This document shows, in pieces, positions 15,157 through 24,993 of a DNA stretch of 64,000 nucleotides (its first letter is position 1; the number at the start of each line of letters is the position of its first letter). Both the position numbers and the translations under genes were made by a program. The DNA lies in contig NZ_JALPRS010000001.1 of NCBI RefSeq assembly GCF_023630255.1, positions 1,364,001-1,428,000 of the forward strand. The letters run 5' to 3'. This DNA is from Pontibacter deserti (GTDB taxonomy: Bacteria; Bacteroidota; Bacteroidia; Cytophagales; Hymenobacteraceae). The notes below the pieces were generated by a model, which made no database searches, was not told where the DNA came from, and saw only the letters and a program-made list of their open reading frames with translations.

Positions 15157-15795
15157 TTAAGCTTTTTTATCAAGGTCGAAGGTGCGGATTATTTCCAGTA
15201 TTTTAAGGAACGTGCTGGTATCAAAAAACAACAGCAAAGGCAACTCTACACTTTTATAGTTATGCGTAAACTTGGTGATAACTGTAAAAACCAATGGTTG
15301 GAATAACGGATGCTGCACCAGAATATCTTTCAGAGAATCAGCAATATGGCTTTTAGGAGCTTTAGGCGGCGAACCATAAATGTTAGCTTTCAGGATATTA
15401 GCTAATTGAGTAACCAGTGCACCAGTTATAATATTGCTTATCTCCAGTAGCAACGACTCCTGCATGGCACTCACTTCACCTTTCTGTACCTCTATCATAC
15501 CAAGGCAAACTTCTGATAAACGGGCAATATGGTTATCAGAAAAGAGCATTAATGTAGCACCATTAAAGTCCCCTTTTATATCTGACTGGATGATAAAGTG
15601 GGTGCTCTCATATTTTGAAACCAGCTTTAGAAGTTCCTTTACCTCTATCAGCTGAATATCCGGCACTTTAAGTAATACTTTATCTTTAGCAATGGCTGCA
15701 AAAGAATCTGCTGCACGTGCCAGCCCGATATTAAGGATCTCCTTAATTATATCGCGTTCAAGTTCAGTTACGTGAGGTTCCGTAATGTTTGTCAT
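15157..15795 (-). CDS. cheC: CheC-like chemotaxis phosphatase
   Basis: 212 residues with two copies of the CheC/CheX/FliY active-site signature ExxN: E19-N22 in EILNIGLARAAD and E118-N121 in LLEISNIITGAL. These dephosphorylate CheY-P in family members. Last gene of the cluster, 13 nt past cheA. In a system without flagella it presumably resets the CheY of this cluster. Assignment to CheC rather than CheX rests on the two ExxN copies. Confidence 0.88.
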   Translation of the reverse strand: MTNITEPHVTELERDIIKEILNIGLARAADSFAAIAKDKVLLKVPDIQLIEVKELLKLVSKYESTHFIIQSDIKGDFNGATLMLFSDNHIARLSEVCLGMIEVQKGEVSAMQESLLLEISNIITGALVTQLANILKANIYGSPPKAPKSHIADSLKDILVQHPLFQPLVFTVITKFTHNYKSVELPLLLFFDTSTFLKILEIIRTFDLDKKA

Positions 15796-15808
15796 GCTAA
15801 TTAAATTT

Positions 15809-17461
15809 TTACTCTCCAGCTAATACCTGCCTTCTGCTCACAAAGTACCGCGTTACCGCAGGCACATCCAGCACCAGGCAAACTTTACCAGAACCAAGTA
15901 ATGTTACACCGCCATACAAATCAACAGCATCTAGGGGCTTGCTCAGTGGTTTAACCACTATGTCCTGCTGCCTGTATAGTTTATCTACAATTAAACCAAG
16001 TTTCCTGTTGTTGTAAGATACAATAATAATATTCTGCACCATGCCGTTTAACCGGGTCTTGTCACCCAGGTTCATGTCCTGCTCATTTACGTTCAGGAGC
16101 TCATGCAGGTAAACAACTGTTATTGTCTCACCTAAAATATCCGCTACCAATACACCACCTACTTCGTGCAGTTCATCTACTTCCAGGGCCACCACCTGTT
16201 CGGTATGTATAAGCGGAATCGCATAAAATATTTTGTCTACTTCAAAAAGAAGAGCACCTTTTACCGCTATCGAAGTTGGTAGCTGAAGTGTAAAGGTGGT
16301 ACCTTTTCCCTTTACAGATTCTATCCTGATTCTGCCGCCAATAGAATCTACCGCATTTTTTACTACATCGAGACCAACCCCTCTGCCAGAAAATTCGGTT
16401 ACTTCTTTAGCTAACGAGAAACCAGGTTCAAACAAATAAGAAAGTGCTTCAGTATCTGAAAGGTGCTCTACAGTACTGGCCGGTAACATATGTCTGTCTA
16501 CAATGGCTTTGCGTACCTGTAGCAGGTCTATACCTTTTCCATCATCTGTTAGCTGAATAATTACGTTTTCACGGTCGTTACGAGCTATCAGAGATAAATT
16601 TCCCTGGCGTGGCTTATTCTTTTTAATTCGGTTCTCTGGTTTTTCTATACCATGGGTAATGGCGTTACGAACCAGATGTAACAACGAGTCTGTGATGATC
16701 TGAAGTATATTCCTGTCGATTTGAATATCGTGGCCAGCTAGAGTTAGATCAACAGTCTTATTCTCGGCTGTGGCAATATCACGAACAATTCTTGGGAATT
16801 TATTGAAAAGTGAGCCTATACTTACCAGGCGCGCATCCATGATGCTGTACTGCAGATCTTCCGTAATTCGGTTCAGGTGAGAACTTACGTTTTTAAGCTC
16901 ATCATTTTCCAGTTCACGGCTGATGGATACAATACGGTCGCGGTCAATTACCAGCTCCCCTACCAGGTTAAGCAAATGGTCCAGCTTTTTAATCTGGATA
17001 TAAACCAGCTCAGACAGAGACAGGTTTTTTGAAGTGTTGTATCGTTGAACTTTAGCTAGCTCGATTGTACTATCCGAGAGGTTGTCAACTATAATGTCGA
17101 GGTTACGGAGCAGTACCGGATCAGGATCGCCATAGTTCTCATTATCGATGTTATGGATCAACTCACCCAGTAAGTCTATACCTTCAAACAAAACAGTTAC
17201 CACTTCATCGCTGAAGCTGAGCTCTTTGTTACGGATAAGGCTGAAAGCTGTCTCTAATTTGTGTGATACATCGGAGATCTTCAGGTACCCGATAGCTTTT
17301 GCGTTAGCTTTCAGGTTATGGAGTAAACGGAATATCTCCGCCAGGATCTGATCATCCTGCGGTCGTTTTTCCAGATCGCTGATATGCCTGTTAAGAGCAT
17401 CAAAATACTCCAGCGCCTCTGCAATAAATATTTCTTTATATTCCTGTTCTCTCGATTTCAT
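15809..17461 (-). CDS. cheA: Chemotaxis histidine kinase CheA
   Basis: 550 residues. N-terminal HPt domain with H48 in LLHNLKANAKAIG (the usual HxxKG has become HNLKAN). The P2 CheY-docking domain is absent or very short. A dimerisation helix hairpin follows (about 150-230), then an HATPase with N-box LVRNAITHGIE, G1 TDDGKGID and G2 GRGVGLDVV, and a C-terminal CheW-like domain. It overlaps cheB by 4 nt (ATGA). Shorter than typical CheA (about 650) because of the missing P2. Soluble; it would phosphorylate CheY of this cluster. Confidence 0.93.
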   Translation of the reverse strand: MKSREQEYKEIFIAEALEYFDALNRHISDLEKRPQDDQILAEIFRLLHNLKANAKAIGYLKISDVSHKLETAFSLIRNKELSFSDEVVTVLFEGIDLLGELIHNIDNENYGDPDPVLLRNLDIIVDNLSDSTIELAKVQRYNTSKNLSLSELVYIQIKKLDHLLNLVGELVIDRDRIVSISRELENDELKNVSSHLNRITEDLQYSIMDARLVSIGSLFNKFPRIVRDIATAENKTVDLTLAGHDIQIDRNILQIITDSLLHLVRNAITHGIEKPENRIKKNKPRQGNLSLIARNDRENVIIQLTDDGKGIDLLQVRKAIVDRHMLPASTVEHLSDTEALSYLFEPGFSLAKEVTEFSGRGVGLDVVKNAVDSIGGRIRIESVKGKGTTFTLQLPTSIAVKGALLFEVDKIFYAIPLIHTEQVVALEVDELHEVGGVLVADILGETITVVYLHELLNVNEQDMNLGDKTRLNGMVQNIIIVSYNNRKLGLIVDKLYRQQDIVVKPLSKPLDAVDLYGGVTLLGSGKVCLVLDVPAVTRYFVSRRQVLAGE

Positions 17462-18570
17462 ATCGTGTCGCCGGCAACGCCGACGGTGTTTTGACTTGCC
17501 ACATAACTGTTTATGAAATGTGGTATTTCAGATAGTGGCAAAACATGTTGCGTTACACCACTTTCTATTACAGACTTAGCCATTCCAAAAATATCTGAAG
17601 AAGCTTCATCCTGGGCAATAACCAATCCGCCCCTTTTATAAATGGTTGTGGCACCAGCAGTACCATCCTTTCCCATTCCGGTTAATATTACACCAAGCAC
17701 CCTTTTCACATTACTGTTCGCTACCGACTGCATCAACAGGTCAATAGAGGGCTGGTCAAAATTTTCAGCAACGTCATCCGAAAAACTGATCTTATAACCT
17801 TCAGTATTCCCGATGATTGACTGTATTTCCATGTTCCGCCCGCCTGGCGCAACTATCAATTTATTGGGTTTTAGTATCGCACCTTGTCTGCCTTCACGCA
17901 CTTTTAGCCTTGTATGGTTTTGTAAGCGCTCAGCCAAAGACTTTGTAAAACCAGAAGGCAAATGCACTGCTACCAATACAGCTGCATTCAGGTCATTATC
18001 TAACTGCTTTACTATAAACTCAATGGCCTTTGTACCACCTGTAGATGCACCTATAACTATAACTGTATCTACCAGAGGCTTTGGTGTTATAGTTTCGGCA
18101 GACAAATTTTCTACCTGATCCTTCAGTTGAGCCAGTCTGCGGTGCACGTCCCAATTTATTGTTTGCCTTACTGCCCTGATTTTAAAAGCAAGTTCAGCGG
18201 CTATACTTCTGTAATCCGGGAAACGCTTTTGTTCGGGTTTCAGTACAATGGCATAAACGCCTAGTGCTGTTACTTCCTGTACAAATTCCAGTGTTAGCTG
18301 CTCACGTTTTACAAGCAAAACAATTGGTGTAGGTGCTTCACTGAAAATGCGCTTCAAAGTAAAAAAACTTTTATTCTGAGGCAGATCACAGTTAACAAGT
18401 ACTACGTGCGGCTCATTTTCCTTCAGAGTTTTAAGTAATTCGTCACCGTCTTTTGCAAAACCAGCAACAAAAATATCTTTCTCCTCATTCAGGGTCGACT
18501 CCAGCACCAGCCGGGTATGACTCGACTGGGCTGCAATCAATACTCTAATCTCTTTTGCTGAATGCAGCAT
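17458..18570 (-). CDS. cheB: CheB methylesterase with degenerate receiver domain
   Basis: 370 residues. The C-terminal methylesterase/deamidase domain is intact: S176 in IGASTGG, H203 in VAVHLPSGF, D302 in TGMGKDGTAG. The N-terminal receiver fold (1-120) has lost its chemistry. The acidic pair after strand 1 is AQ (14-15, LIAAQSS), and the phospho-acceptor position is asparagine (N60 in VLVNCDLP), although the lysine near strand 5 (VLKPEQ) remains. Phosphorylation control is therefore unlikely unless D62 substitutes. 4-nt overlap with cheA. No cheR methyltransferase is in the cluster. Confidence 0.92.
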   Translation of the reverse strand: MLHSAKEIRVLIAAQSSHTRLVLESTLNEEKDIFVAGFAKDGDELLKTLKENEPHVVLVNCDLPQNKSFFTLKRIFSEAPTPIVLLVKREQLTLEFVQEVTALGVYAIVLKPEQKRFPDYRSIAAELAFKIRAVRQTINWDVHRRLAQLKDQVENLSAETITPKPLVDTVIVIGASTGGTKAIEFIVKQLDNDLNAAVLVAVHLPSGFTKSLAERLQNHTRLKVREGRQGAILKPNKLIVAPGGRNMEIQSIIGNTEGYKISFSDDVAENFDQPSIDLLMQSVANSNVKRVLGVILTGMGKDGTAGATTIYKRGGLVIAQDEASSDIFGMAKSVIESGVTQHVLPLSEIPHFINSYVASQNTVGVAGDTI

Positions 18571-18603
18571 AAATTGTAAAAGGACCTAAGCAGCTAAAAG
18601 AAT

Positions 18604-18969
18604 TTATTCTTCTTTCAGTGCCTGGCTAACTACTTCTAAAACTTTTTCTTCAGAGAACGGCTTCACAATGTAAGAAAGAGCACCATATTCCAGCGCTTCA
18701 TTCACGATCACTTCCTGACCTACGGCACTAACTATAACAACTTTCATGTCCGGCTGATCAGCTTTTATGCCTTTCAGTACATCCAGACCAGTATTATCCG
18801 GCAAAATAACATCCAGTGTAACCAGATCAGGTTTTGTTTCCTTTGCCAGTTCCAGGGCTGTTTGTCCGTTTGGTGCTTCGCCTACAATTTCGTAGCCTGC
18901 GTCCGTCAGCATGTTCTTTAACATGGTGCGCATGTAGAAAGAATCATCTACAATTAATATTCTCTTCAT
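18604..18969 (-). CDS. cheY: Single-domain response regulator CheY
   Basis: 121 residues, a complete receiver: acidic pair in LIVDDSFYM (D8, D9), phospho-acceptor D53 in VTLDVILPDNTG, S/T switch in VIVSAVGQ, and the lysine in YIVKPFSEEK. No output domain. Likely phospho-acceptor from the CheA of this cluster. Because no flagellar genes occur here and gliding genes do, the target may be the gliding or type IX machinery or another process; that is inference. Confidence 0.92.
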   Translation of the reverse strand: MKRILIVDDSFYMRTMLKNMLTDAGYEIVGEAPNGQTALELAKETKPDLVTLDVILPDNTGLDVLKGIKADQPDMKVVIVSAVGQEVIVNEALEYGALSYIVKPFSEEKVLEVVSQALKEE

Positions 18970-18991
18970 AATTTCTGTAGTTGCTTATGTC

Positions 18992-19558
18992 TTAGTTTGA
19001 TAACTGCTTCACTTCGTCACTGGAAAGTATCTTATACATGTCCAGCACAATAATCAACCGGTTATCTACTTTCGCTATACCTTCAATATAATTTTCCTGC
19101 ACGGCTATATCCTGCAGGAAAGAAGGTGTTTTATCAATTTTTGAAACGGCTAAGTTAAGTGACTGTGGTACTTCCTTCACTACCACACCAATGCTGTAAT
19201 CTTTAGCTTCAATCACTAAAGTATAAGTAACATTGCTGTCAGTAGCTGAATTATCCGGACGTATACCAAAACGCTCTTCCAGATCCATGATGGCTATAAT
19301 ATCACCCCGGATGTTGGCTACCCCTTTCACAAAGTCAGGTGTGCGGGGCATGTGCGTTATACTTGGCGTTACAGTAACTTCCTTAACCTGCTCTATTTTA
19401 ATGCCATAAAATTCTGCTCCAAGCTTAAAAACGATCAGATGCAGCAGCGGCTCATTTACATTTACCTTCGCTGCTTCTTCCGTTTCTTTGCCGTTAACAG
19501 CAATAGCATCTTGTGCAGGCACTGCATTATCCAGTGCCTTCTCTTTTTTAGTCGGCAT
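18992..19558 (-). CDS. cheW: Chemotaxis coupling protein CheW
   Basis: 188 residues. The CheW SH3-like fold starts at about residue 35 (HLIVFKLGAEFYGIKIEQVKEVTVTPSITHMPRTPDFVKGVANIRGDIIAIMDLEERFG in sequence) with the typical RGxIIxxxDL element, and ends VDNRLIIVLDMYKIL. A 35-residue polar N-terminal extension makes it longer than E. coli CheW (167). It links the receptor to CheA; the gene is 7 nt downstream of the receptor gene. Confidence 0.92.
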   Translation of the reverse strand: MPTKKEKALDNAVPAQDAIAVNGKETEEAAKVNVNEPLLHLIVFKLGAEFYGIKIEQVKEVTVTPSITHMPRTPDFVKGVANIRGDIIAIMDLEERFGIRPDNSATDSNVTYTLVIEAKDYSIGVVVKEVPQSLNLAVSKIDKTPSFLQDIAVQENYIEGIAKVDNRLIIVLDMYKILSSDEVKQLSN

Positions 19559-19565
19559 AATTGGT

Positions 19566-22500
19566 TTAATTGCTGTTACCTAATCTGTTACTTCTGCCTG
19601 TAATCTGTGTTCTCGCAGCAGTACGCTTCATCGAACCATTATTATTGGCAGGTATAGAAGTCATACGCTTTGGTTTGTTATGGTTAAAGATGATGTTACC
19701 ATCTATCAGCTTGAAGGCAGAGATACTGATCTGCAGATCGGCTGCAATGTCGTTCAGGTTCTGAGACGATGAAGTAAGTTCCTGCATCGAAGTTGAAAGC
19801 TGCTTGGCTGTACTTGCTACCTGCTGTGTACCAGAGGCTGTCTGTTCAGCAATTGCTACCACTTCTTCCACATACTTCACTACGTCTCCGATGGATGATT
19901 TCTGAACTTCCGTAGCCGTTAAGATATCCTGTGCAGTACGAAGCGTTTCACCACTTGATGCAGCAATATTTTTAAAGGCGCTGGATGCTTCAAATGTTGC
20001 ATTCTTTCCTTTTAATACGCGGCCTTCCATGGTCGAGATCGCTGTTGCAGCAGAGGCTGTATCTTTCTTCACGTCTTCTACCAGTGTAGCAATCTCACTT
20101 GCAGACTTACGTGAACCTTCCGCCAGCTTTCTGATCTCTTCAGCTACCACCGCAAAACCACGTCCTGCTTCACCTGCTCTGGCCGCCTCAATGGCAGCGT
20201 TAAGTGCAAGTAGGTTAGTTTGTGCGGCAATGTCTGTGATCACACCAAGTGACTTTGATATCTCCTGAGAACGAGTACTTAATACTTCAATCGTTTTAGC
20301 AGTAAGCGCCGCAGAGCTTGAAATCTCTTCCATGTTCTTCACCACTTCCGCAACTGTCTTTAGACCAATCTGAGAGCTTTCCTCACCAAGTAATGCTGTT
20401 TTGTTCACTACTTCGGCACGGTTGGCAGTCTCTTTAGTACCTTTCATGATCTCTTCGATCAGTTTAAAGGCCTGGTCTGTTTTTAACGCTTGGTTCTGTG
20501 CACCTTCTGCCATTTGCTGCATTGCTAAGGCCACATCCAGTGTCACTTTGTTCATGTCCAGACCTTTGGTAGCCATTTCTTCAGAAGAAGAACCTACTAC
20601 TAAAGATGAGTCGTTGATTTCACCTAGTAACGCATTCAGGTTATCAACCGCCAGGTTAAGCGCATTCGCCATATCCTGGATATCACCGGCAGTCTGTATC
20701 TCAGCTTTCTGAGTCAAATCACCTTCAGAGATCGCACGTACTACACGAGATACTTCCAGTACCGGCGTTACGATTGATTCTAACAGGTCATTTAGTGTAT
20801 CAACAAGCTCTTTCCAGCTGCCACCCACACCAAGTACAGTTGCACGCTCAGTAAGTTTACCTTCCACACCCGCAACTCTTGCCACACGAGATACCTCACC
20901 GGCTAGTCTGTTCAGGTCAACCACCATGGTATTGATTGTTTCAGCTAGTTCTGCAACTTCACCACGGGCTTCTAAGCTTAATTTCTGGGTTAGGTCACCT
21001 TTTGATACTGCTGTTACTACTTTTACGATGCCTCGTACCTGTGTTGTAAGGTTAGAAGCCATGGTATTCACATTGTCGGTAAGATCTTTCCAGGTACCGG
21101 CAACACCAATAACTCTCGCCTGGCCTCCTAGTTTACCTTCTGTACCTACTTCACGTGCCACACGAGTTACCTCACTGGCAAATGAACCAAGCTGATCCAC
21201 CATTATATTGATCACGTCTTTGATCTGCAGGATCTCTCCACGCACATCCACCGTGATTTTCTGAGTTAAGTCGCCACTTGCAATAGCAGTTGCCACTTTA
21301 GATACGTCACGTAACTGAACAGTAAGGTTACCGGCCATCGCATTTACGTTATCTGTCAGTTCTTTCCAGGTTCCGCCTACGTTTGGCACTACTGCCTGAC
21401 CACCCAGTTTACCTTCTGTACCTACTTCAAGCGCTACACGGGTTACCTCACCGGCAAATATGTTCAGGGAATCTACCATCTGGTTGATGTTCTCTTTAAG
21501 TAAGAGCATCTCCCCTTTTACATCCACCGTAATTTTTTGAGTTAAGTCACCTTTCGCAACCGCTGTAGATACGTTGGCAATGTCACGCACCTGCTGGGTA
21601 AGGTTGGCAGCCATGGTGTTCACATGGTCAGTTAAGTCTTTCCAAACACCAGCCACGTTAGGTACTATAGCCTGTCCGCCTAGTTTACCTTCCGTACCCA
21701 CTTCACGAGCCACGCGGGTTACCTCATCTGCGAAGATGTTCAGCGAGTCCACCATCTGGTTAAGGTTACCTTTCAGGTCAGCAAGCTCGCCTTTTACATT
21801 AACTGTGATCTTCTGGCTCAGGTCACCTTTTGCCACCGCAGTCGCAACATTTGCAATGTCACGCACCTGGCTTGTAAGGTTTGAAGCCATGTAGTTTACG
21901 TTGTCGGTAAGGTCTTTCCATACACCACCAACGTTCGGTACATTTGCTTGGCCACCCAGTATACCTTCAGTGCCTACCTCACGTGCCACACGCGATACTT
22001 CCGCGCCAAACACATTCAGTCGGTCCACCATTTCATTCAATATATCCTTCAGGTCACCCAGCTCACCTTTCACATCCACAGAAACTTTCTGAGTTAAGTC
22101 ACCTTTCGCAACCGCGGTTGCTACGTTGGCGATATCTCGTACCTGAAGTGTTAAGTTAGAAGCCATCAGGTTTACATTCTCTGTAAGCTCCTTCCAGGTT
22201 CCTTCTACTTTCGGCACATTTGCCTGGCCACCCAGTTTTCCTTCTGTACCTACTTCTCTCGCCACACGAGTTACCTCACCAGCGAAAATGTTCAGGGAAT
22301 CCACCATCTGGTTGATGTTCTCTTTCAGGTCGGCCATCTCACCTTTCACGTTTACCGTGATCTTCTGAGTTAAGTCGCCTTTTGCAACCGCTGTAGATAC
22401 GTTGGCAATGTCACGCACCTGAGAAGTCAGGTTGCTGGCCATTGTGTTCACGTTATCAGTCAGTTCTTTCCATACACCACCTACATTAGGCACTTTGGCT

Positions 22501-23525
22501 TGTCCGCCCAGTTTACCTTCTGTACCCACTTCACGTGCCACACGGGTTACCTCGTCTGCGAAGATGTTCAGTGAGTCCACCATCTGGTTCATGTTGTCCT
22601 TCAGCTGGGCAAATTCACCGCGAACATCCACCGAAATTTTCTGAGCAAGGTTACCTTTTGCCACGGCAGTTGCCACGTTCGAGATATCTCGTACCTGCAA
22701 GGTCAGGTTGGCAGCCATGGTATTCACATTATCGGTAAGGTCTTTCCATACACCGGCTACGTTTGGTACCGAAGCCTGGCCTCCTAGTTTACCTTCTGTA
22801 CCCACTTCAAGTGCCACACGGGTTACCTCACCGGCGAACAGGTTCAGGTTATCGATGGTACGGTTTATAGTTTCGGCCATCACCTTAAAGTCACCTGATA
22901 CCGGGATCTGGAATGTTTCATCCAGGTTACCGCGCGAGATGTTTTTAAGTACTTTACCTACTTCTAGTACCGGTACCGCAATCGAATCCACAAGACCGTT
23001 GATGTTGTTGATCATGTCCTTCCAGAAACCGGAAGCGTTCTCAGCAGAAGCACGGGCTTTCAGGTTACCCTCCACACCGGCTACTTTCGAGATACGTGAC
23101 ACCTCGCCACCCACACCACCGATCATTTCCACCATCGAGTTGTAAGCTTCTGCTATCTCGGCAAAAATGTCGTTATTCTGTTTGGTAAGTCGAACTGAGA
23201 TATCACCTTTTTTAAAGGCATCCAGCGCGTATAGTACCTTATAAAGCTGTTCGTTAATATAGTCAGGGCTCTGCAGCAATTTTTCATCAGTGATTCTGAT
23301 GTCTCCACCGTTAGAACCATTGATAGGTTTTTTGGTTGGAGTGGCAGGTTTTTCAGCCGGCGCTCCATCAACTGCTATAGTTGCGCCCGGAGCATCAGCT
23401 ATTGCTGTAGAAGTAGCTTTTTTGTTACCGTTCCCTTCTTTAGGAACAGGAGTTTTAGCTGTACTGCCTTCCACATCACTGATGAGCTTGTCTTTGCTCA
23501 ACTTCAAGTTTTTACCTAAGGCCAT
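19566..23525 (-). CDS. Soluble poly-HAMP methyl-accepting chemotaxis protein
   Basis: 1319 residues with no transmembrane segment or signal peptide, hence cytoplasmic. Residues 1-75 are low-complexity and basic/Pro-Ala rich ([14 protein letters not shown] start). From about 80 to 900 nine tandem 92-residue units, each with [27 protein letters not shown] and [10 protein letters not shown] type motifs, form poly-HAMP coiled coils as in group III hybrid kinases. After a linker, the C-terminal MCP signalling hairpin has its tip [20 protein letters not shown] near residue 1100. The final 40 residues are basic. There is no recognisable ligand domain, so the HAMP array itself or the N-terminus may sense. 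First of the che genes, preceded by parA. Confidence 0.93.
20855..23115 (-). repeat. Nine in-frame 276-bp tandem units (poly-HAMP coding repeats)
   Basis: The same word (plus-strand GTTTACC and close variants) recurs at 20855, 21131, 21407, 21683, 21959, 22235, 22511, 22787 and 23063, exactly 276 bp (92 codons) apart with no insertion or deletion. The middle seven units are very similar at the DNA level; the two outer ones have diverged. Confidence 0.95.
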
Positions 23526-23665
23526 ATGTGTTTAGTTGAATTGCTTTTTGAATTGTACTGAAAAGGCCAAAATCTCCTTTTCTTACTCCCTTATAAAAAG
23601 AGCAATTTATGCAACGCAAATTAATCAAATTTAATGGTTTGTTCAAATTTGGTAAATGATAGTAT

Positions 23666-24412
23666 TTACCTTGTAATAAATTCCTCCGCAAGAGCCATAT
23701 AATCTTTTGCACCTTTCGATGCAGCATCATATTCCATTATACTTCGCCCAAACGAAGGTGCTTCGGCAAGTTTAACATTAAGGCGTATGCTTTGTTTAAA
23801 AATATGCTCCTTTACGTTCTGCTGCAGATATTCTAATACTTCCTGACTCAGCTTTCTGCGCACATCAAACATCACCACTACGATACCTTTTATTTTAAGT
23901 TTCGGATTGAACGCTTTTTTTATTTTTTCTACTGTATTCAGTATCTGATCGAGCCCCTGTAAAGTGAGCACTTCCATTTGTAGTGGGATCAGAACTTCGT
24001 CGGAAGCAGTTAGTGCATTAAGTGTTAGCACTGATAAAGAAGGCGGACAATCTATAAGTATGTAGTCAAACCCTTTCAGATCTTTCAGCATCGTTTGCAG
24101 AAACTTCTCGCGTTCCGGTTGCGACACAAGCGATATCTCAATATCTACCAGTTCGTTAGAACCAGGCGCGATCCAAAGACCATCTTTTTCAACCAGCACA
24201 TCCTGCAAACTGGTATTACCCAGGAATGCATCAGCTAAAGTTGCCTTAGGTTCTGTAACAGCAAGCGAGTAAGATAGATTCCCTTGCGGATCTAAATCTA
24301 ATAATAAAACACGTTTGCCTAATTTACTTAAAGCACTCCCTAAATTTATTGTGGTGGTGGTTTTACCTGTACCGCCTTTCTGATTGATGACGGCTACTGT
24401 GGTTGTTGCCAT
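23666..24412 (-). CDS. ParA/Soj-family ATPase, probably positioning the chemosensory array
   Basis: 248 residues, deviant Walker A KGGTGKTTTTINLG at the N-terminus, Walker A' LLLDLDPQGN, Walker B YILIDCPPS, and the basic DNA-binding C-terminal region. ParA ATPases dimerise on ATP and bind DNA non-specifically. No parB gene or parS-like sites adjoin it; instead it directly precedes the soluble receptor (140 nt) in the same orientation. Rhodobacter PpfA and Vibrio ParC are ParA homologues that place chemoreceptor clusters. By analogy this one may distribute the cytoplasmic array. A role in chromosome partition with a distant parB cannot be excluded. Confidence 0.88.
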   Translation of the reverse strand: MATTTVAVINQKGGTGKTTTTINLGSALSKLGKRVLLLDLDPQGNLSYSLAVTEPKATLADAFLGNTSLQDVLVEKDGLWIAPGSNELVDIEISLVSQPEREKFLQTMLKDLKGFDYILIDCPPSLSVLTLNALTASDEVLIPLQMEVLTLQGLDQILNTVEKIKKAFNPKLKIKGIVVVMFDVRRKLSQEVLEYLQQNVKEHIFKQSIRLNVKLAEAPSFGRSIMEYDAASKGAKDYMALAEEFITR

Positions 24413-24498
24413 TTTATAGTTGCGTTGATGTAAGGTCAGTTATTTAACTGCAGCCACTAAACTAAGTATAAAAACAACCTAAGACAAAAAGATTGTAT

Positions 24499-24993
24499 TT
24501 AAACACTTTGTTGCAGGTTCATCTTTTCCAGTTCACCTGTTCTTACATAGATATCCTGCCATTGCTCCAGATCAAGTGCAACAGCAGCTACCTGCGCAGG
24601 CACCAGGTAGGGTAAACTCCTGTTTACCAGATTTCTGAGTAGTTGTGTAAGTGCAGGGTTATGAGATACAAGTACAATTTTTTTTACATGTGCAGGCAAC
24701 TGGCTTATACTTTTAAGCAGCTGTGCTTCTTTAGGGTTATAAATTTCCGGATCGTAGGTAATATTGTCCTGCTCAAAGTATAAACGACTGGCTACAATAC
24801 GGGCAGTGTCGCTGGCGCGCTTTGCGGGGCTGGCCAAAATAGCATCTGCTTTCTGGTAGTATTCTCTAATCCATTTGCCCAATTCGTGAGCCTGCCGTAT
24901 ACCTTCAGGAGTAAGCTCCCGCTCAAAATCTGGCTGCAGCGGATAAGGATCAAAAGTTTCTGCGTGGCGGCAGATCAGTAAATGTCGTTGCAT
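24499..24993 (-). CDS. sixA: SixA-like phosphohistidine phosphatase (histidine phosphatase superfamily)
   Basis: 164 residues with the RHG-type motif CRHAET (R9, H10), ELTPEGIRQAHELG, SPAKRASDTA with the second arginine, and LVSHNP near 108-112 with the second histidine. SixA removes phosphate from histidine of HPt domains. It lies 86 nt upstream of parA on the same strand, next to a cluster with an HPt-bearing CheA, so that HPt is a plausible substrate. A generic small-molecule phosphatase remains possible. Confidence 0.85.
   Translation of the reverse strand: MQRHLLICRHAETFDPYPLQPDFERELTPEGIRQAHELGKWIREYYQKADAILASPAKRASDTARIVASRLYFEQDNITYDPEIYNPKEAQLLKSISQLPAHVKKIVLVSHNPALTQLLRNLVNRSLPYLVPAQVAAVALDLEQWQDIYVRTGELEKMNLQQSV

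Follow-up and report, generated by a model that had tools for sequence, protein, structure and literature searches.

A soluble poly-HAMP chemoreceptor as the probable ParB-like partner of an orphan ParA in Pontibacter deserti

The papers cited here, in their available portions, describe the positioning of chemosensory arrays by a ParA for proteobacteria only, namely Rhodobacter, Vibrio and Halothiobacillus (PMC3964821, PMC9178275, PMC10241942). In Rhodobacter sphaeroides, the orphan ParA named PpfA is encoded next to the soluble receptor TlpT and acts through the N-terminus of this receptor, which is thought to stimulate PpfA as a ParB-like partner (PMC3964821, PMC9178275, PMC7993993). The ParC-ParP system of Vibrio and ParC of Halothiobacillus give a second example of a ParA-family ATPase that is encoded with che genes and positions arrays (PMC10241942, PMC9178275). 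Among the literature matches listed (open-licence papers), no title or abstract treats ParA together with chemoreceptors in Bacteroidota. Here we analyse a locus of Pontibacter deserti, a member of this phylum, in which a parA gene stands directly beside the gene of a soluble chemoreceptor. It lies in a stretch of 64,000 nucleotides, hereafter the window (assembly GCF_023630255.1, contig NZ_JALPRS010000001.1, positions 1,364,001 to 1,428,000 of the forward strand). We think it likely that the receptor itself plays the part of ParB and that the ParA positions the array on the nucleoid, in a manner similar to PpfA-TlpT.

Two further kinds of described systems are relevant for the comparison. Partner proteins activate ParA/MinD ATPases via a short charged N-terminal stretch (PMC7993993, PMC10241942), and in PomX-PomZ, McdB-McdA and ParB-ParA it is the cargo or adaptor whose peptide activates, or is suggested to activate, the ATPase; in PomX, this peptide is placed on a probably unstructured Ala/Pro-rich domain (PMC7993993). 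These systems serve other cargo, whereas in the window the peptide is located on the receptor itself. A different solution is represented by FrzCD of Myxococcus xanthus, the soluble HAMP-bearing receptor of a gliding bacterium with a nucleoid-associated array, whose basic tail, variable in sequence, makes direct contact with DNA; no ParA partner is named for it in the available portions of the sources (PMC5716589, PMC12077210).

The locus comprises eight genes in the order sixA-parA-receptor-cheW-cheY-cheB-cheA-cheC, all of them on the minus strand between positions 15157 and 24993, as the initial annotation had read it; assignments are based on Pfam and NCBIfam profile matches. The features on which the argument turns are the following.

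23666-24412, minus strand: parA (ParA/AAA_31, 3.5e-53), a ParB-less Soj-fold ATPase of a chemosensory-specific clade
23478-23525, minus strand: receptor codons 1-16, the conserved N-terminal peptide and proposed ParA-activating tag (from column conservation)
23256-23477 (approximate), minus strand: receptor linker, residues about 17-90, variable and rich in Ala/Gly/Thr/Lys/Pro (column conservation of 0-0.6 from the end of the peptide up to the first HAMP)
19566-23525, minus strand: soluble poly-HAMP chemoreceptor of 1319 residues (HAMP repeats and MCPsignal, 2.3e-39)

The receptor has tandem HAMP units with a period of 92 residues and an MCP signalling domain, and it is the sole MCPsignal match of a genome that is 99.9% complete. 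Two other traits proposed at the outset, a membrane-free receptor and a ParA directly upstream of it, are confirmed: no evident membrane span was found (the maximum 19-residue Kyte-Doolittle mean is 1.35), and the two genes are adjacent on the same strand with a gap of 140 bases. Thus, as in PpfA-TlpT, a ParA gene without parB lies directly beside a soluble receptor gene. The differences from that system are that the window genome has no FliG, a single receptor match, tandem HAMPs, CheC in the cluster and one CheA that combines Hpt, ATPase and CheW domains, where Rhodobacter has CheA3/CheA4. A side observation concerns the length of the genus receptors (L040-L077), which mostly changes in steps of about 92 residues (about 1226-1231, 1319, 1412-1431, 1504-1544 and 1602); judging from the sequences, it looks like whole HAMP repeat units have been gained or lost.

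The identity of the ATPase is the first pillar of our reading. The genome encodes two ParAs that match the window ParA at an E value of 1e-20 or better, itself included, with other AAA_31 matches in longer frames. Its only ParB_N gene follows the other, Soj-type ParA at C1:1805693, and there is no parB beside the window parA. In a maximum-likelihood tree of 49 rows, 23 receptor-linked ParAs and 3 orphans are split with support 100/98 from 16 ParB-linked ParAs and 7 unlinked ones (two Soj-like, five apart), and none of the rows in the chemosensory clade has a linked ParB. This tree contains a reduced set of genus rows, in which the window ParA is represented by orthologues up to 89% identical to it, its own row being left out; the ParA trees comprise only rows from the order and from two genomes of the motif scan described below. 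A grouping with chromosomal Soj, named beforehand as part of the outcome that would count against the proposal, was therefore not observed for these orthologues. As for the fold, an AlphaFold2 model (9-row alignment, mean predicted local distance difference test score 89.4) is that of Soj, with Z scores of 37.4 to 9a6n, 37.2 to 8ray and 36.6 to Helicobacter pylori Soj 6iub, and a root-mean-square deviation of 1.5 over 247-248 residues. The protein was considered for a MinD-type C-terminal membrane-targeting helix; its final residue, 248, directly follows the terminal helix (233-247) seen in the Soj-like model. The Walker A motif reads KGGTGKT instead of KGGVGKT, its threonine being present in 9/10 chemosensory rows and in none of 8 Soj rows, whereas PpfA is listed with KGGVGKT (PMC9178275). 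In a tblastn search of plasmids with the window ParA, at least 5000 records were matched, the best place in each being below 60% identity.

The reading of this ParA as the chromosomal partition ATPase of a Soj ParABS system was rejected because it belongs to a separate clade and the only ParB_N gene stands beside the other ParA. A related explanation is that parA encodes a second, or a stray, ATPase of DNA partition and came to lie beside the che genes by chance. The Soj fold and the 39% identity with the genome's own Soj speak for it; against it stand the absence of an adjacent ParB, the lack of any ParB-linked row in its clade and its location beside the receptor in all 34 genus regions that could be used and also in a number of other families, and we consider this explanation very improbable. 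A ParA orthologue, 76-93% identical, is present in all 36 other genomes of the genus, and 34 of the 36 regions carry the cluster from sixA to cheC in the same order, while the other two finish at a contig end after parA. In two of the 34 clusters the receptor is split over two reading frames (L043, L044). The order parA-receptor-cheW-cheY-cheB-cheA is found also in two other families (G040, G055), and conservation in the genus together with this recurrence shows that the cluster is not due to chance.

The second pillar is the N-terminal peptide of the receptor, which follows the pattern MALG(K/N/D)N(I/L)K..K(D/E)xL(I/L) and has, in the window, four lysines and a net charge of about +3. Among the 34 genus receptors, mean conservation is 0.97 for residues 1-15, drops to 0.0-0.6 in the linker and rises to 0.94-1.0 in the next 120 aligned columns. 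A conserved tip, a drifting linker and a conserved body point to a short peptide under selection at the tip of a tail, and the linker that bears it is probably flexible. The peptide is present as well in receptors of other families (G040, G055, G133) in which, according to Pfam, the signalling domain is preceded by PAS domains and a single HAMP_2 stretch; it is thus kept while the sensory part changes.

The third pillar is the strict co-occurrence of peptide and ATPase. Both are present in 34/34 genus clusters, and we extended the comparison to the order, where CheA (PF02895) was found in 59/194 genomes at 74 places, four of them in the own window, L058, L078 and L080, and 70 in further regions. 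Leaving aside the window and L058, 50 of the 72 regions have a CheA of the window type; in the other 22 the CheA is fragmentary or of a different type, and the genes are mostly arranged differently. Thirteen of the 50 were unusable: eight stretches contain no receptor, and in five the start of the receptor is truncated or not in frame. Among the remaining 37 clusters, peptide and chemosensory-clade ParA are both present in 17 and both missing in 20, with no discordant case. The parA gene is directly upstream, at 15-338 bases, in 14 of the 17 peptide-bearing clusters. The other three (G053, G077, G106) have the peptide but no adjacent parA and led us to search whole genomes, 27 in all including those of peptide-less rows: each of the three has an extra ParA elsewhere that falls inside the chemosensory clade of the tree. 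In 18 peptide-less genomes, the best ParA match, which is the only one per genome placed in the tree, falls outside this clade (G076 and G060 share one identical row); a nineteenth, G052, gave one ParA match of 38% identity and a stretch holding 193 bases upstream of the receptor. The 22 regions of the other type (L097-L150) often have the order cheY-cheA-cheW-receptor-cheB, several are on short contigs and one is a CheA fragment; no parA of the window type was found in any of them. Beyond the order, the window-type CheA profile matches 111/395 genomes of the phylum at E 1e-70, four in the window's family and 107 sharing the phylum only. In a partial survey of 20 regions outside the order drawn from these 107, none had the chemosensory ParA, and none of the 11 receptors found (in the 8 regions with a receptor match) had the peptide.

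A scan at the DNA level gave a consistent picture. MALG(N/D)N-hydrophobic-KK(D/E) was written as a fixed degenerate pattern of 29 bases, and this pattern was run through the genomes of 84,980 species. The pattern is built such that the form of the peptide found in the genus escapes it, and the collection may lack records close to the window's genome. The scan returned 12 loci, titled Cytophagales, Flammeovirgaceae, Cyclobacteriaceae or Bacteroidetes, five of them Flammeovirga; at least 5 of the 12 are in genomes already surveyed, so that at most 7 are new. A chemosensory parA lies 17-295 bases upstream in 10 of them, and in the other two genomes it is found elsewhere (E values of 3e-74 and 9e-69), inside the chemosensory clade of the tree. 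Taken with the survey, all five peptide-bearing genomes with no adjacent parA encode an orphan ParA of this clade elsewhere. With a profile of receptor-linked ParAs, orphans score 304-340 bits, seven other unlinked ParAs 236-270 and Soj rows 238-248; the receptor-linked ParA of G087, which is a long branch, reaches 256 with the genus profile, and the score alone would therefore not identify every member of the clade. At the level of sequence association, the receptor N-terminus would then appear to be dedicated to ParA (37/37 usable clusters of the order, 34/34 of the genus and 5/5 orphan cases). The earlier proposal of an array with a built-in ParA is supported in part: a dedicated ParA stands apart from the Soj/ParB pair and is tied to the soluble receptor by synteny and peptide co-occurrence, while inheritance by partition remains a prediction from these associations.

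The same data bear on the possibility that the tail of the receptor binds DNA itself, as in FrzCD, and that the ParA has another job. The precedent is a soluble receptor with HAMPs whose basic N-terminal tail binds the nucleoid (PMC5716589, PMC12077210), and the four lysines of the window peptide would fit such a role. FrzCD tails vary in sequence and keep only their charge, as described in the available part of the source (PMC5716589), whereas here the tail is conserved in sequence, non-basic positions included (M-A-L-G, N and L-I), and of the 17 survey rows that have the ParA, 11 carry a net charge of no more than +1 over residues 1-16. Moreover, the peptide is absent where ParA is absent and predicts the orphan ParAs in five of five cases. 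We find direct DNA binding in place of a ParA contact distinctly unlikely for the window receptor.

The layout of the receptor, with a peptide, an Ala/Pro-containing linker and a self-assembling body, resembles that of PomX, and together with the published partner principle it leads us to propose a ParA ratchet driven by the receptor. ParA-ATP dimers would bind the nucleoid non-specifically; the many receptor N-termini on one array would bind these dimers, trigger ATP hydrolysis and release ParA. The array would follow the resulting ParA gradient, spread over the nucleoid and be split between the daughters. It is thus probably distributed along the chromosome and passed on to both daughter cells much as a plasmid is. 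The HAMP stack would signal to CheA and CheY, CheC would remove phosphorylated CheY, and the output would be a non-flagellar motor or process, most plausibly the motor of the type IX secretion system (T9SS) and gliding. We infer the contact between ParA and peptide, the activation of the ATPase, the partitioning on the nucleoid and the output from the gene content and the comparisons given above.

Several points weigh against this proposal. We defined the pattern of the peptide after the sequences had been seen, and it was broadened on one occasion (MA[LS]G, [NE]) to take in G077 and G106. In most members outside the genus the peptide is only weakly basic, as the net charges given above indicate, while published ParA partner peptides are described, in the portions available, as rich in positive charge. 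Variation at third codon positions in the genus is 0.126 for codons 2-15, compared with 0.312 in the HAMP block, 0.333 in parA and 0.212 at the start of cheA, so that part of the conservation could be at the DNA level; the codons of the peptide differ between families, and a nucleotide-level explanation of the peptide may hold in part. The rows of the survey share ancestry, which limits the statistics: the best CheA tree requires seven changes for each trait, and the independent pairs on well-supported branches, all four in the same direction, give a sign test p of 0.125, above 0.05. The raw Fisher value of 6e-11, or 1e-5 by genus, ignores ancestry and is not to be taken as significance. In addition, a ParA of the chemosensory clade is missing from 20 of the related clusters that could be used. 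Finally, the N-terminus of CheW in the genus is variable and bears lysines (for instance MPTKKEK, MKKKSDK and MAKQTKN), which would suit another partner for the ATPase.

This last point belongs to an explanation in which the ParA positions the array via CheW, CheA or an unlinked ParP-like adaptor, in the style of Vibrio ParC-ParP, and the peptide has another role. A docking study in Halothiobacillus took CheW as the partner of ParC (PMC10241942). CheW as partner is weakened by the low conservation of its residues 1-15 in the genus, 0.40 compared with 0.97 for the receptor, and by N-termini that are mostly acidic in the other ParA-bearing survey rows (mean net charge -1.9, 16 rows). As for an adaptor, no other same-strand open reading frame of at least 90 codons is found from parA to cheC (15157-24412), and the window cluster differs from ParC-ParP in having no extra adaptor gene (an unlinked ParP was not searched for), no FliG and a soluble receptor. 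Since it is the receptor peptide that tracks ParA in the survey, we regard a partner other than the receptor as unlikely, and we retain the receptor as the probable partner.

A natural comparison is offered by a sister genus of the same family, g23, in which the receptor has topA as its divergent neighbour in 10/10 usable regions, at 75-346 bases from the predicted receptor reading frame. Neither sixA nor parA is at the syntenic site in these regions, and a chemosensory-clade ParA was not the best match in whole-genome searches of 10 g23 genomes. The g23 receptor lacks the peptide, its first 15 aligned columns being conserved at 0.35 and its HAMP blocks at 0.91-1.0, and possible remnants are seen, such as MASGKITK. 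A basic patch, RK[RK]G, is present in the linker of all 10 g23 receptors (L084-L086, L088-L093, L095), in none of the 34 of the genus and in none of 17 ParA-bearing survey receptors. The maximum local charge is modestly higher where ParA is missing (Mann-Whitney 0.01, uncorrected for ancestry and with a doubtful start in L148). These data give hints that direct DNA binding through RK[RK]G may substitute for ParA in g23. That the soluble arrays of the order switch in their use of the chromosome, between ferrying by ParA with a receptor tag and FrzCD-like direct binding through this patch, is a speculative idea that we hold to be rather doubtful.

The remaining genes of the cluster, assigned by the same profiles, are listed below.

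24499-24993, minus strand: SixA-like phosphohistidine phosphatase (His_Phos_1; TIGR00249 at 52.8 bits, below its cut-off of 74.5)
18992-19558, minus strand: cheW coupling protein
18604-18969, minus strand: cheY, a single-domain response regulator (CheY-like)
17458-18570, minus strand: cheB, receiver and methylesterase
15809-17461, minus strand: cheA histidine kinase with Hpt, H-kinase_dim, HATPase and CheW domains and no receiver
15157-15795, minus strand: cheC-type phosphatase of phosphorylated CheY, with two ExxN motifs

The ExxN motif is what we take to be the CheC-type signature. From the receptor to cheC the genes are tightly packed, with gaps of 7, 22, 33, -4 and 13 bases between reading frames, and 86 bases separate sixA from parA. 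The cluster is flanked by topA on one side and, on the other, by a fused S-adenosylmethionine decarboxylase/spermidine synthase and an arginase-family gene. The CheA of the window has no receiver, whereas FrzE of Myxococcus is a CheA-CheY fusion. With regard to sixA, which the initial annotation counted among the array genes, its place as first gene holds in the window and it accompanies parA in the genus and in G212 of the same family; the regions retrieved from other families did not show it. On this distribution, sixA is probably outside the core of the cluster. Its product, a phosphohistidine phosphatase encoded near a CheA with an Hpt domain, may have a functional role there. As a separate observation, cheB diverges fast in the genus, being 47-72% identical to that of the window where cheA is 77-93% identical. 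It is missing in 6 of the 34 genus clusters (L044, L049, L058, L074, L076, L077), and methylation-based adaptation may be dispensable, as this divergence and absence suggest. Only two CheR-family matches exist in the genome, both far from the cluster (C1:347423 and C1:164101; L060, L061), one in a frame of 281 codons and the other in one of 1411 codons.

Regarding the output, the initial annotation noted no flagellar gene nearby, and the genome has no match to FliG_C, which sets this locus apart from ParC-ParP, a system associated with polar flagella. The genome does encode gldM of the T9SS/gliding motor, GldM matching at 3.3e-124. With gldM present and FliG absent, a gliding output of the array is plausible. 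The CheY-like domain of PorX, when activated, binds the T9SS motor protein GldL, according to the available part of the source (PMC10951265), which makes an action of CheY on GldL a reasonable guess by analogy. A studied strain of Chitinophaga pinensis is described, in the portion of the literature available, as having no chemotaxis arrays.

Soluble arrays positioned by ParA are already known, and what is new here is that they take a form, in a different phylum, in which the receptor bears a defined tag that can be tracked together with the ATPase across genomes. In the non-flagellated genome analysed here, the ParA-linked array is the sole array found. The candidate partner of the ParA has shrunk to some 15 residues of peptide, and where this peptide is present the ATPase can be predicted, including cases in which its gene is unlinked. 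In our opinion, this makes the specificity between cargo and ATPase testable with one short peptide, for which the sister lineages with neither ParA nor tag provide natural comparisons. The locus also points to a chemosensory input for organisms with a T9SS/gliding motor.

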